Below, piece by piece: positions 24,599-28,971 of a DNA stretch of 33,932 nt. Source of the stretch: Acidobacteriota bacterium (GTDB lineage: Bacteria; Acidobacteriota; Polarisedimenticolia; Gp22-AA2; AA152); contig QHVQ01000014.1 of the NCBI GenBank assembly GCA_003222305.1, positions 1-33,932 on the forward strand, written 5' to 3'. The notes under the pieces are model-generated. The model was not told where the DNA came from. It worked only from the letters and a program-made list of their open reading frames with translations, and did not search any database. Positions within the stretch are counted from its first letter, which is position 1, and every line of letters begins with the position of its first letter. Both the position numbers and the translations under genes were made by a program.

Positions 24599-24787
24599 CT
24601 ACCCTCCGTCCTCGTCGATCTCATCCTCATCCTGATGGAAAAACATTTCGCCGCATCCACGACTACAGAAGGTCTGCCCGCTCTTGAGGAAGCGGCACTC
24701 TTCGCAGACCATCTTGTGGCAAATGGGGCACTTGTACAAGTACGCCTCCTCCTCGCCCGCGCCACACTGCACACATTCCTGGGCCAC
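24599..24787 (-). CDS. small cysteine-rich (zinc-ribbon-like) protein, unknown function
   Basis: A 62-aa protein I cannot name. The start is taken as GTG at 24787 because GGGAGG lies six bases upstream. The frame is open to 24856, but the extra residues look non-coding. It has three Cys pairs: CVQCG at 5-9, CPIC and CEEC in KCPICHKMVCEEC, and FCSRGCGEMFF. A His lies between the second and third pairs. The pattern fits a two-zinc ribbon or treble-clef fold. The tail HQDEDEIDEDGG is strongly acidic. It heads the hemB-hemL operon directly before a zinc-requiring HemB. A role as metal sensor, chaperone or transcription-associated zinc ribbon is possible but unproven. Confidence 0.75.
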   Translation of the reverse strand: MAQECVQCGAGEEEAYLYKCPICHKMVCEECRFLKSGQTFCSRGCGEMFFHQDEDEIDEDGG

Positions 24788-24813
24788 ACTAACCTCCCTA
24801 ATACTCGCGCCGG

Positions 24814-24842
24814 ATGATACCAGAGAGGCCCCCAGAAATCTA
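24814..24842 (-). promoter_or_regulatory. putative extended -10 promoter for zinc protein-hemB-hemL
   Basis: On the minus strand there is an extended -10, TGG then TATCAT (24822-24814), with a poor -35 (TAGATT, 24842-24837) at 17 bases. The predicted start near 24807 gives a leader of about 20 bases with the GGGAGG ribosome site. It is divergent from the tRNA promoter at 24874-24903. Confidence 0.45.
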
Positions 24843-24873
24843 GCGCTTTTAATCACTTAGCTCTCTCGAAGCC

Positions 24874-24903
24874 TTGACAGAGCCGTCCCGCATTCTCTAA
24901 AAT
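24874..24903 (+). promoter_or_regulatory. sigma70-type promoter for tRNA(CAU)-tilS-hpt
   Basis: TTGACA at 24874-24879, an 18-base spacer and TAAAAT at 24898-24903. The predicted start near 24910 is about ten bases before the tRNA. The three bases after the tRNA leave no room for another promoter, so it probably also drives tilS and hpt. Confidence 0.7.
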
Positions 24904-24919
24904 AAAGTGCCCTACCGGA

Positions 24920-24996
24920 GGCGGTGTAGCTCAGATGGTTAGAGCACGCGGCTCATATCCGCGGAGTCCGGGGTTCGAGTCCCTGCACCGCTACCA
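24920..24996 (+). tRNA. tRNA with CAU anticodon (Met elongator or Ile2)
   Basis: A full cloverleaf with encoded CCA (24994-24996). The acceptor stem GGCGGTG pairs with CACCGCT, with a G1-U72 wobble. The D arm is GCTC/GAGC and the anticodon stem CGCGG/CCGCG carries the loop CTCATAT, anticodon CAU. The T arm is CGGGG/CCCTG around TTCGAGT. It is not an initiator tRNA, because there is no 1-72 mismatch and no triple G-C block next to the anticodon loop. A CAU tRNA is either elongator Met or the Ile2 species that TilS modifies to read AUA. Position 38 is T and not the A of E. coli Ile2, which slightly favours Met. The next gene is tilS, which makes Ile2 attractive. Sequence alone does not settle it. 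Confidence 0.95.
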
Positions 24997-25001
24997 ACCC
25001 T

Positions 25002-26399
25002 ATGTCGTTTGACCTGTTCGAATCCTTCAAGTCGGCCCTCGACCGCCTGGCTCTCTGGAAGAAAGGGGAAGCGGTGTTGATCGCCGCGTCCGGCGGACCC
25101 GATTCGACCGGCCTACTCGACCTGTTTGCTCGCCTGCAGGAGGAAAGCCCCTTCCCGCTGGCTGTGGTGCACCTTAATCATGGGCTCCGGGGGGATGAAT
25201 CGGATGCGGATGAAAGGTTCGTTGAGACCCTAGCAAAGCGTCACAATCTCTCCTTTCATGTTCGTAGGATCAGCCGGGTGGAGTTAGAGGGCACGACAGA
25301 GGGGCTGGAGGCCGCCGCCCGGAAGGCGCGCTACAGATTCTTGAGGGAGACCGCGCGCACAACCGGATCCTCGCGCGTCGCCCTCGGGCACACTCGCGAA
25401 GATCAGTCCGAAACCTTACTCATGAGGCTGCTCCGAGGCTCAGGACGGCGGGGCCTGGGGGGCATCCACCCCTGCGTGGATGGGATTTTTATCCGGCCAC
25501 TTCTGGAGGTCTCTCGGGAAACGGTGAAGGCCTACTTGCTGCGACGGGGAGGAATCTGGCGAGAGGACTCTTCGAATCAGGATCTGCGGCGCATGCGGAA
25601 TCGGGTTCGTCACCGGCTCATGCCCTTGCTCCGGCAGGAATTCAATCCGGAGATCGACGCGGTACTCGCTCGCACCGCAACGTTCTTTCGGGAGGAGGAC
25701 GAATTCCTGGACACCCTCACCGAGGACCTGGCGCGGCGGCTCATCCGTAATGAAGCCCAAGGATTCTGTCTGAGTATTCCCGCCCTGCGCGTGCTGCCGG
25801 CGGCACTTCGAAGACGCCTTCTGAGAAGTTTCCTTGAAGGCGCCTCGCAGGATTCGGCCCCGCCCGACTTTGAGACCACGGCGGCATTGGAAACCCTGGT
25901 TCGTGAAGGCCGACATCGGGCGGCCGTGACTCTTCGCCCCGATCTGGAGGCGAGGGTCATCTATTCGGATCTGCTTCTGCTCCCTCCGCAAGCTGCGCCG
26001 GAACCGGATGCCGTCCCCCTCCCGGTTCCCGGCGAAGCAGCCCTGCCCGACCTGGGCGTCCGGCTGAGCGCCCGGCAGATGAGCCCCTCGGAGGTAGGGG
26101 ATCCCCGGATCACGACCATCCCGGGGCGGGCCCTTCTGGACGCCGATGCTCTTCCGGGGCCGCTGTTGGTAAGGCGCCGCAGGAACGGCGACCTGTTTCG
26201 GCCCCTGGGTGCCCCCGGCGAGTCGAAGCTCAAGTCGTACTTCATCGACCACAAAGTCCCGAGACCTGTCCGGGATCGGATTCCGCTGGTTGTGGCCGGA
26301 GACAAGATTGCCTGGGTGGTCGGCTATCAGATTGACGATCGCTTTAAGGTGACCCCACGCACCCGACGCGTGGTGGTCCTCTCAAAGGAGCTGCAATGA
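25002..26399 (+). CDS. tilS: tRNA(Ile)-lysidine synthetase
   Basis: TilS attaches lysine to C34 of the CAU-anticodon tRNA-Ile2 so that it reads AUA and is charged with isoleucine. It has 465 aa. The N-type ATP pyrophosphatase P-loop is SGGPDS at 30-35. HLNHGLRGDESDADERF, GLEAAARKARYRFL and GHTREDQSETLLMRLLRGSG follow, with the full C-terminal domains after them (GRALLDADALPGPLLVRRRRNGD and KSYFIDHKVPRPVRDRIPLV). The ATG is only six bases after the 3' A of the upstream CAU tRNA, and no ribosome site is possible between them. Once the tRNA is cut out, the message would start with about five bases. hpt overlaps the stop. The tilS-hpt-ftsH order is known from Gram-positive genomes. Confidence 0.96.
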   Translation: MSFDLFESFKSALDRLALWKKGEAVLIAASGGPDSTGLLDLFARLQEESPFPLAVVHLNHGLRGDESDADERFVETLAKRHNLSFHVRRISRVELEGTTEGLEAAARKARYRFLRETARTTGSSRVALGHTREDQSETLLMRLLRGSGRRGLGGIHPCVDGIFIRPLLEVSRETVKAYLLRRGGIWREDSSNQDLRRMRNRVRHRLMPLLRQEFNPEIDAVLARTATFFREEDEFLDTLTEDLARRLIRNEAQGFCLSIPALRVLPAALRRRLLRSFLEGASQDSAPPDFETTAALETLVREGRHRAAVTLRPDLEARVIYSDLLLLPPQAAPEPDAVPLPVPGEAALPDLGVRLSARQMSPSEVGDPRITTIPGRALLDADALPGPLLVRRRRNGDLFRPLGAPGESKLKSYFIDHKVPRPVRDRIPLVVAGDKIAWVVGYQIDDRFKVTPRTRRVVVLSKELQ

Positions 26400-26905
26400 A
26401 CCTTTCAAGGGAGATTCTGCGATCCGAGGCGGAGATCGCCGAGCGGGTGCGGCAACTCGGCCGCCAGATCACCACGGACCTCGAGGGCAAGGAAATGGCG
26501 GTTCTGGGAATCCTGAAAGGCTCCTTCGTTTTTGTCGCTGACTTGATCAGGCAAATCCGCCTGCCGGTTCAAATCGGTTTCCTGGAAATCAGCCACTCGG
26601 AGAAATCCGAGTTTCTCACCGAGATTCTTTTTTACTCCAATTTCAAAGTCGAGGGGACCAACCTCCTGGTGGTGGAGGACATCCTGGATACCGGGATCAC
26701 TCTCGCCTATCTCACGGAGCAGCTGGCCGCCAAGGGGCCGAAATCGATCCGAATCTGTACTTTTTTGGACAAGCCGGAAAGGCGGAAAGTGGACATTCAG
26801 CCGGACTATGTGGGATTCCCGGTCCCGAACAAACACGTGGTCGGCTACGGCCTGGACTTCCAGGGCCGGTTTCGAAACCTCCCCTATCTGACCTATATGG
26901 AATAG
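26396..26905 (+). CDS. hpt: hypoxanthine phosphoribosyltransferase (atypical loop)
   Basis: HPRT salvages hypoxanthine/guanine with PRPP to IMP/GMP. It has 169 aa, normal for short bacterial forms. VLGILKGSFVFVADLIR is at 36-52 and the PRPP motif VVEDILDTG at 92-100. CTFLDKPERR and VGYGLDFQGRFRNLPYL, both typical, follow. The segment between LPVQI and the PRPP motif (residues 61-88) is unusual: the flexible catalytic loop that normally reads like SSYG..SSGEV is replaced by EISHSEKSEFLTEIL. The Ser-Tyr pair of loop II is therefore not seen, and activity or specificity may differ. The ATG overlaps the tilS stop with AAGGAG upstream. Palindromes after the stop (TCCCTCGAGGGA at 26906-26917 and CCCC-AGA-GGGG at 26928-26938) are too weak to call a terminator. 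Confidence 0.9.
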   Translation: MNLSREILRSEAEIAERVRQLGRQITTDLEGKEMAVLGILKGSFVFVADLIRQIRLPVQIGFLEISHSEKSEFLTEILFYSNFKVEGTNLLVVEDILDTGITLAYLTEQLAAKGPKSIRICTFLDKPERRKVDIQPDYVGFPVPNKHVVGYGLDFQGRFRNLPYLTYME

Positions 26906-27030: not shown

Positions 27031-28971
27031 TTGAACACTCTGGCGAAGAACATCATCTTCTGGCTGGTCATCATTGTCCTGGCCTTGGTGGCGTACCGCT
27101 TCCTGGCAGGGACGACGGTGCCACAGACCGAGCTGTCCTTCAGCGAATTCCTGAGCCAAGCCGAGGCAGGGAAGATTTCCGAGGTCACACTCAACGGCAG
27201 CGACGTGGATGGGGCCTACCTCGAGAAAGACACCTCGGGGCAGACCCGCACTTTTCATACCGTGGCGCCCGACTATCCGGACCTCGTCAAGGATCTGCGA
27301 AAATTCAACGTCACCATCACGGCCAAGAAGCCCAAAGATGCCAACTACCTGGTCACTGTCCTTTCATGGCTTCCCATGGTCTTGTTGGTGGGCATTTGGA
27401 TCTTTTTCATGCGCCAGATGCAGTCGGGCGGCAACAAGGCTCTTTCCTTCGGGAAGAGCAAGGCCAAGCTCTCTTCCTCCCAGGGGAAGAAGGTGACCTT
27501 CCGGGACGTCGCCGGGGTGGACGAGGCTAAAGAGGAGCTCCAGGAAATCATCGAGTTTCTCAAAGAACCGCAGAAGTTCCAGAAGTTGGGCGGAAAGATC
27601 CCCAAGGGCGTGCTCCTGATGGGTCCTCCGGGAACCGGCAAGACCCTGCTGGCCCGAGCCATCGCCGGCGAGGCCAACGTCCCCTTTTTCTCCATTTCTG
27701 GTTCGGACTTCGTCGAAATGTTCGTGGGGGTTGGGGCGAGCCGGGTGCGAGATCTCTTCGAGCAGGGAAAGAAAAACGCCCCCTGCATTATCTTCATCGA
27801 CGAGATCGACGCCGTGGGGCGGCATCGGGGCGCGGGGCTCGGCGGTGGCCATGATGAGCGCGAGCAGACCCTGAACCAGCTCCTGGTGGAGATGGACGGT
27901 TTCGAGAGCAATGAAGGAGTCATCCTGATTGCCGCCACCAACCGGCCCGACGTGCTCGACCCGGCGCTCTTGCGGCCCGGGCGGTTCGACCGCCGTGTAG
28001 TGGTGCCACGCCCCGATGTGAAGGGGCGCGAGGAAATCCTCCGAGTGCACACCCGCAAGACTCCACTGGGGGAGGACGTGGATCTTCAGGTGATGGCTCG
28101 CGGGAGCCCGGGCTTCTCCGGAGCAGACCTGGCAAACCTGGTCAATGAAGCTGCGCTGAATGCCGCCCGTTACGGAAAGAAGGCGGTAATGATGGAGGAC
28201 TTCGAGGGGGCCAAAGACAAAGTACTGATGGGCACCGAGAGGAAGAGTCTGATCATCAGCGAGGAGGAGAAGAAGGTCACCGCCTACCATGAAGCCGGGC
28301 ACGCCCTGGTGGCGGCAACGCTTCCCGACACCGATCCGCTGCACAAGGTGACCATCATCCCCCGAGGCATGGCCCTGGGCGTGACCCAACAGCTTCCCAT
28401 TGACGACCGACACAACTACAGCCGGGAGTATCTGCGCAGCCAGATTGCGGTGATGATGGGCGGACGCGTGGCGGAGGAACTCTATCTGCAGAAGATCACC
28501 ACCGGCGCAGGGAACGACCTCGAGCAGGCCACCGACATGGCCCGACGCATGGTATGCGAGTGGGGCATGAGCGAGACCATGGGTCCCCTCACGTTTGGCA
28601 AGAAGGAAGAGCAGATTTTCTTGGGCAGGGAGATTGCTCAGCATCAGGACTACAGCGAAAGCACCGCCGCCCTCATCGACAAGGAGGTCAAGCGGCTGGT
28701 TCTGGAAGGGTACGAGAGAGCCAGGGAAGTCCTCTCCAGTCACGCTGAAGCCTTGCATCGGATCGCGAGGGCTCTGCTCGAGTACGAGGTGCTGGCGGGA
28801 GAGGAGGTTCTGCGGGTAATGCGTGGCGAGGAGTTCGTACCGCAGCAGCGCGAGCGAAAAACCCGCAGACCTGAGCCCGGCACGGTGTCCCGGCCCGAAC
28901 CAGAGAGGGTGCGAGACGGTCGCCCCGAGGCCCCGGTCATCGCGCCCGATCCCTTGAAACAGCCCGGCTAA
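27031..28971 (+). CDS. ftsH: ATP-dependent zinc metalloprotease FtsH
   Basis: A membrane-anchored AAA+ protease that degrades membrane and short-lived cytoplasmic proteins. It has 646 aa. TM1 is [17 protein letters not shown] near 8-24, a periplasmic domain follows, and TM2 is [19 protein letters not shown] near 108-126. The AAA module has GPPGTGKT at 198-205, [11 protein letters not shown], and the second region of homology [13 protein letters not shown]. The protease domain has HEAGH at 420-424, with the third zinc ligand expected at Asp496 (GNDLEQATD). The C-terminus is a charged, proline-rich tail. The start is the TTG at 27031, because the frame opens directly with the membrane anchor and GGGAG is five bases upstream. 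folP follows after 58 bases. Confidence 0.98.

Follow-up and report, generated by a model that had tools for sequence, protein, structure and literature searches.

A tRNA-Met gene ending five nucleotides before tilS in an Acidobacteriota genome suggests a nearly leaderless lysidine synthetase message

Co-transcription of tRNAs with protein genes and the tRNA punctuation of mitochondrial transcripts are already known. The latter was reportedly described by Ojala, Montoya and Attardi in 1981. In E. coli, metY-rimP-nusA-infB and thrU-tyrU-glyT-thrT-tufB are transcripts in which tRNAs are joined to genes of the translation machinery, with long spacers and normal ribosome binding sites before the protein genes. 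Still closer to the locus described here are clusters in clostridia, Geobacteraceae and KSB1 (L125, L132, L121 and L131), in which an elongator tRNA-Met lies upstream of tilS on the same strand. These clusters differ in including an initiator tRNA, and in the clostridia also Leu, Glu and Val tRNAs, and their last tRNA is approximately 59–273 nt from the tilS start, which leaves room for a ribosome site.

The locus analyzed here lies on contig QHVQ01000014.1 of an Acidobacteriota bacterium, and the window refers to the entire 33,932-nt stretch. As in mitochondrial punctuation, a protein gene starts right after a tRNA, and excision of that tRNA would leave almost no leader. Unlike the mitochondrial case, the setting is a bacterial chromosome, a single tRNA with its own promoter precedes an operon, and cleavage is predicted. 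As in the E. coli transcripts, the tRNA is joined to a gene of the translation machinery; the spacer, however, is only 5 nt and contains no ribosome site, and both the tRNA and the gene are different. In the searchable literature, whose coverage is partial, we found no description of a linkage between elongator tRNA-Met and tilS, and no paper on bacterial start codons inside tRNA genes.

ARAGORN identifies a single tRNA in the window, at 24920–24996 on the forward strand, with a CAU (CAT in the DNA) anticodon at 24954–24956 and an encoded CCA. The Rfam tRNA model (RF00005) matches it with 64.3 bits. The 5-nt spacer ACCCT (24997–25001, forward strand), the putative leader of a processed tilS message, has no Shine-Dalgarno site. 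It is followed by tilS (25002–26399, forward strand), which starts with ATG and encodes a tRNA(Ile)-lysidine synthetase of 465 amino acids. The protein scores over the Pfam cut-offs for ATP_bind_3 (PF01171, the PP-loop domain with SGGxDS), TilS (PF09179, substrate-binding) and TilS_C (PF11734, C-terminal). ARAGORN, Rfam and the Pfam domains of the reading frame thus confirm the junction proposed earlier from the sequence alone, a CAU tRNA ending at 24996 and a tilS ATG at 25002 with a 5-nt gap. The next gene, an hpt-like phosphoribosyltransferase (26396–26905, forward strand; Pfam Pribosyltran), overlaps the tilS stop with its start as ATGA (26396–26399), suggesting coupled translation. Downstream of hpt are ftsH, the next gene in the same direction (27031–28971, forward strand; Pfam Peptidase_M41, AAA and FtsH_ext), folP, cdaA, ybbR and a gene of the phosphoglucomutase family. 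On the reverse strand, at 24599–24856, is a divergent gene for a small protein with several CxxC pairs (QECVQCGAGEEEAYLYKCPICHKMVCEECRFLKSGQTFCSRGCGEMFF) and no Pfam match; its relatives occur near the tRNA in many other families.

ARAGORN calls CAT tRNAs of every class Met, and the class was therefore judged by identity positions. The TilS of E. coli requires C4:G69 and C5:G68 and disfavors tRNA-Met by a factor of more than 300 (PMC12514573). The window tRNA has G4:C69, G5:C68, C3:G70 and U38, and lacks these determinants. It agrees with E. coli elongator tRNA-Met in the CAU anticodon, A73, G2:C71 and C3:G70. It is not initiator-like: G1:U72 is paired, and the anticodon stem, CGCGG/CCGCG, has no GGG/CCC beside the anticodon loop, in contrast to the initiator tRNA in L121, which reads CGCGGGG...CCCGCAA. 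A38 in the anticodon loop is a feature of isoleucine tRNAs. The loop of the window tRNA reads CTCATAT, compared with CTCATAA in all 30 Ile2-type tRNAs, a test that is weak alone as A38 occurs in E. coli tRNA-Met too. Among the tilS-linked CAU tRNAs, G4:C69 is found in 58 of 58 and C4:G69/C5:G68 in none; the Ile2-type tRNAs have C5:G68 and C4:G69 or U4:G69 in 30 of 30.

The other CAU tRNA of the window's own genome, on contig C106, belongs to the latter type, with C4:G69, C5:G68 and A38, and its best match over the whole length is the E. coli tRNA-Ile with a CAT anticodon. It is the only other CAU tRNA found in this assembly, which is 87% complete; no initiator tRNA was seen in the same 87%, presumably because the assembly is incomplete. 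In L121, L125, L131 and L132 the second CAU tRNA of the cluster is of the initiator type (CGCGGGG or CGCGGGA), indicating that the tilS-linked one is neither initiator nor Ile2. Judged by these positions, the window tRNA is an elongator tRNA-Met, not Ile2. The sequence-only reading had raised the possibility that it is Ile2, such that TilS would be co-transcribed with its own substrate. The CAU anticodon, A73 and A37 are indeed common to both types. The pairs at 4:69 and 5:68, U38 in place of A38 and the initiator-type partner in the four named loci nevertheless contradict this proposal, and the missing TilS determinants together with the separate Ile2-type gene rule out Ile2 identity; we consider co-transcription with the substrate extremely unlikely. 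Of the checks which that reading had suggested, classification thus went against it, and the search for the arrangement in relatives went in its favor. Phage annotations were unreliable as class labels: depositors call near-identical tRNAs either Met or Ile, and in one case the label is at odds with the product name in its own row.

The strong promoter predicted upstream of the tRNA was borne out. TTGACA (24874–24879) and TAAAAT (24898–24903), separated by 18 nt on the forward strand, match the consensus at 11 of 12 positions and form the sole promoter-like site in 24700–25300, where shuffled sequences average 0.2. A comparable site precedes the tRNA in the three other genomes of the window's family (G001, G002 and G003), and a promoter of the same type was found before the tRNA in 42 of 49 tight loci, compared with 9% of shuffles. 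Between this promoter and the tilS ATG (24904–25001), the consensus scan detected no promoter-like site. The 20 nt before the ATG consist of the tRNA end and the spacer, and no Shine-Dalgarno match of at least 3 bases was present in the 17 nt scanned upstream of tilS, whereas the same scan found AAGGAG before hpt. Both scans agree with the earlier claim that neither a promoter nor a ribosome site fits between the two genes. Lacking a Shine-Dalgarno site and starting 5 nt past the tRNA 3′ end, the window tilS resembles a leaderless gene.

We also looked for a different tilS start, one of the findings, with an internal promoter, that the sequence-only reading had named as evidence against itself. 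Alignment with relatives supports the ATG at 25002, as M1 hardly varies and the N-terminal helix can be aligned. A later start at GTG 25074, preceded by AAGGGG, is unlikely because the conserved N-terminal helix ahead of it would be lost. It is conceivable that tilS has its own promoter inside the tRNA gene and gives rise to a leaderless mRNA independent of tRNA processing, as leaderless genes with their own promoters are frequent in some bacteria (PMC4633059). The empty interval 24904–25001 argues against such a promoter. Furthermore, its -10 element would have to lie where the T-arm and acceptor strand are encoded, and no TANNNT occurs in TTCGAGTCCCTGCACCGCTACCAACCCT. We judge this arrangement very unlikely, and we strongly infer that the tRNA and tilS are co-transcribed.

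Of 60 relatives, 57 have TilS. We examined 56 tilS loci, and 40 carry a Met-type CAU tRNA upstream in the same orientation; for 35 the distance to a start is no more than about 200 nt. In most of these relatives, the gene beside tilS is the only strong Met-type match, and an Ile2-type tRNA is located elsewhere. Among the best 80 named relatives, 20 have a Met-type CAU tRNA no more than 700 nt upstream of tilS. They represent about ten phyla, with members in Poribacteria, Aminicenantes, Omnitrophota, Armatimonadetes, Desulfuromonadales, Gemmatimonadetes, Latescibacterota, KSB1, Bacillota and Acidobacteria. In sister families of the window's own, the named TilS proteins that come nearest suggest Acidobacteriota as the phylum. 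By our own estimate, a single tRNA gene in a 3–4 Mb genome would by chance lie 100 nt or less upstream of any particular gene, in the same orientation, in approximately 1 of 100,000 cases. The suggestion that the arrangement exceeds chance and is kept in relatives is therefore upheld, by the 40 of 56 loci and by a spacing of 5 nt in all four members of the window's family. On these comparisons, the pairing of elongator tRNA-Met with tilS is old and widespread.

In that family, the window genome and G001–G003, the constant 5-nt gap is a matter of four genomes. The spacers read ACCCT, AATTT, ACTCT and TTACG, constant in length and changing in sequence, and TilS identity is 60–67%. We scanned 396 genomes of the phylum for a tRNA T-arm and acceptor followed by SGGxDS within 66–96 nt. 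The pattern matched in 51 genomes and its reverse in none; the match in G015 is spurious (no tRNA, broken frame). In 36 genomes from 11 families, the tilS ATG is at its usual position 8–13 nt past the discriminator base; in 19 genomes the distance is exactly 8 nt, corresponding to 5 nt after an encoded CCA. None of the 36 has a usual-position ATG nearer than 8 nt, although the pattern allowed nearer ones. C71-C72-A73 in f15, f44, f49 and f57 is not an encoded CCA, and gaps in these families were counted accordingly. In G302, G274 and G356, the final A of the tRNA is also part of an additional in-frame ATG, and G206 has a GTG 16 nt past the tRNA.

These distances bear on whether the neighborhood is simply conserved, with the promoter of a housekeeping tRNA driving an essential gene in low demand and the small gap reflecting compaction without regulatory meaning. 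The spacer sequence is not conserved, and folding of the leader region, in the transcript and in the cut message, is no better than in shuffles. In other orders the gap varies from 18 nt up to several hundred; gaps of 18–170 nt or more indicate that a tiny gap is not required. Plain compaction, however, does not readily account for the sharp lower limit of 8 nt in 11 families, for a spacer length kept in the window's family while its sequence changes, or for a linkage that recurs in about ten phyla. We find this explanation quite unlikely. In f15, f35, f44, f49 and f57 (L226–L244), the tRNA-Met lacks an encoded CCA and is followed by a mostly T-rich run (for example TTTTTTTTATG) up to the tilS ATG. 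This run could weakly terminate transcription, be a point of cleavage or serve as a site for ribosomal protein S1.

The tRNA class, the lone promoter, the missing Shine-Dalgarno site and the conserved order and spacing are established at the level of sequence. We consider it fairly probable that in the window tRNA-Met and tilS form one transcription unit, and that the tilS mRNA is left almost leaderless once the tRNA is excised. The single strong promoter would give a transcript containing the tRNA, tilS, hpt and probably ftsH, from which RNase P and a 3′ nuclease, here perhaps of the RNase E/G type, would cut out the tRNA. Only about 5 nt would precede the AUG of the leftover tilS message, which would be translated without a Shine-Dalgarno site, as are leaderless mRNAs and the products of mitochondrial punctuation. 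TilS output would then depend on how elongator tRNA-Met, the near-cognate that the enzyme has to reject, is transcribed and matured, rather than on the enzyme's substrate tRNA-Ile2. Cleavage at the CCA end, leaderless initiation and any regulatory benefit are steps that we infer. The genome encodes two RNase E/G proteins. RNase Z gave only weak matches and none over the curated cut-off in the 87% complete assembly, which makes the 3′ nuclease uncertain.

In two other families, the tilS frame extends into the tRNA, always at the same distance, in 8 of 9 genomes of f14 and 4 of 4 of f39 (L275, L264–L273 and L189); the one exception among the 13 is 64% complete. In most members, the stretch from the tRNA to the PP-loop lacks any ATG, GTG or TTG, and the start codons present after the tRNA in some members are not common to both families. 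In all 12 genomes, C75 and A76 form a His codon (CAC or CAT) with the base after them, the fourth codon encodes Leu (CTN or TTG), and Phe and Arg come next, with synonymous changes. Protein-level constraint, as read from these codons, reaches the CCA of the tRNA, so that translation most likely starts no later than the junction. Conserved start codons occur only inside the tRNA gene, a TTG at -35 (12 of 12) and a GTG or TTG at -62 from the tRNA end; a non-standard start, for example CTG at -14, is possible. In G054 (L253/L206) there is no shared usual start after the tRNA, and an ATG 28 nt before the tRNA end heads a full-length TilS; its sole family mate did not match the pattern.

Were the tRNA excised in f14, f39 and G054, the cut message would lack its start, so the excision mechanism is not the whole story, and tRNA and TilS would have to come from different transcripts. 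An alternative is that the uncut precursor itself serves as the TilS message: initiation precedes excision, the ribosomes open part of the tRNA, and maturation and TilS synthesis compete for each transcript. A frame that begins inside the tRNA would allow only this route, and the fixed overlap, the constraint up to the CCA, the confinement of conserved starts to the tRNA and the G054 ATG all point to it. The in-tRNA starts may, however, persist only through conservation of the tRNA itself. The window family has a normal ATG after the tRNA, and a tRNA fold 5 nt before the start codon should obstruct the small ribosomal subunit. We regard the uncut-precursor route as rather unlikely. A related, tentative idea is that in f14 and f39 tilS starts inside the tRNA-Met gene, each transcript serving as either tRNA or TilS message and never as both, and that the window represents a relaxed form of this either/or coupling. 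If true, lysidine synthesis would be linked to how much of the competing CAU tRNA is supplied.

TilS decides which CAU tRNAs read AUA as isoleucine, and thus its amount relative to the look-alike tRNA-Met bears on decoding accuracy. Linkage to a non-substrate tRNA, a near-zero leader and overlap in some families provide a bacterial test case for tRNA punctuation, and also for translation that competes with tRNA maturation. Elsewhere in the window's own genome, on contig C123 (L021, 1583–2263), a possibly spurious GTG open reading frame of 227 amino acids with no Pfam match begins 7 nt after a tRNA-Gln.
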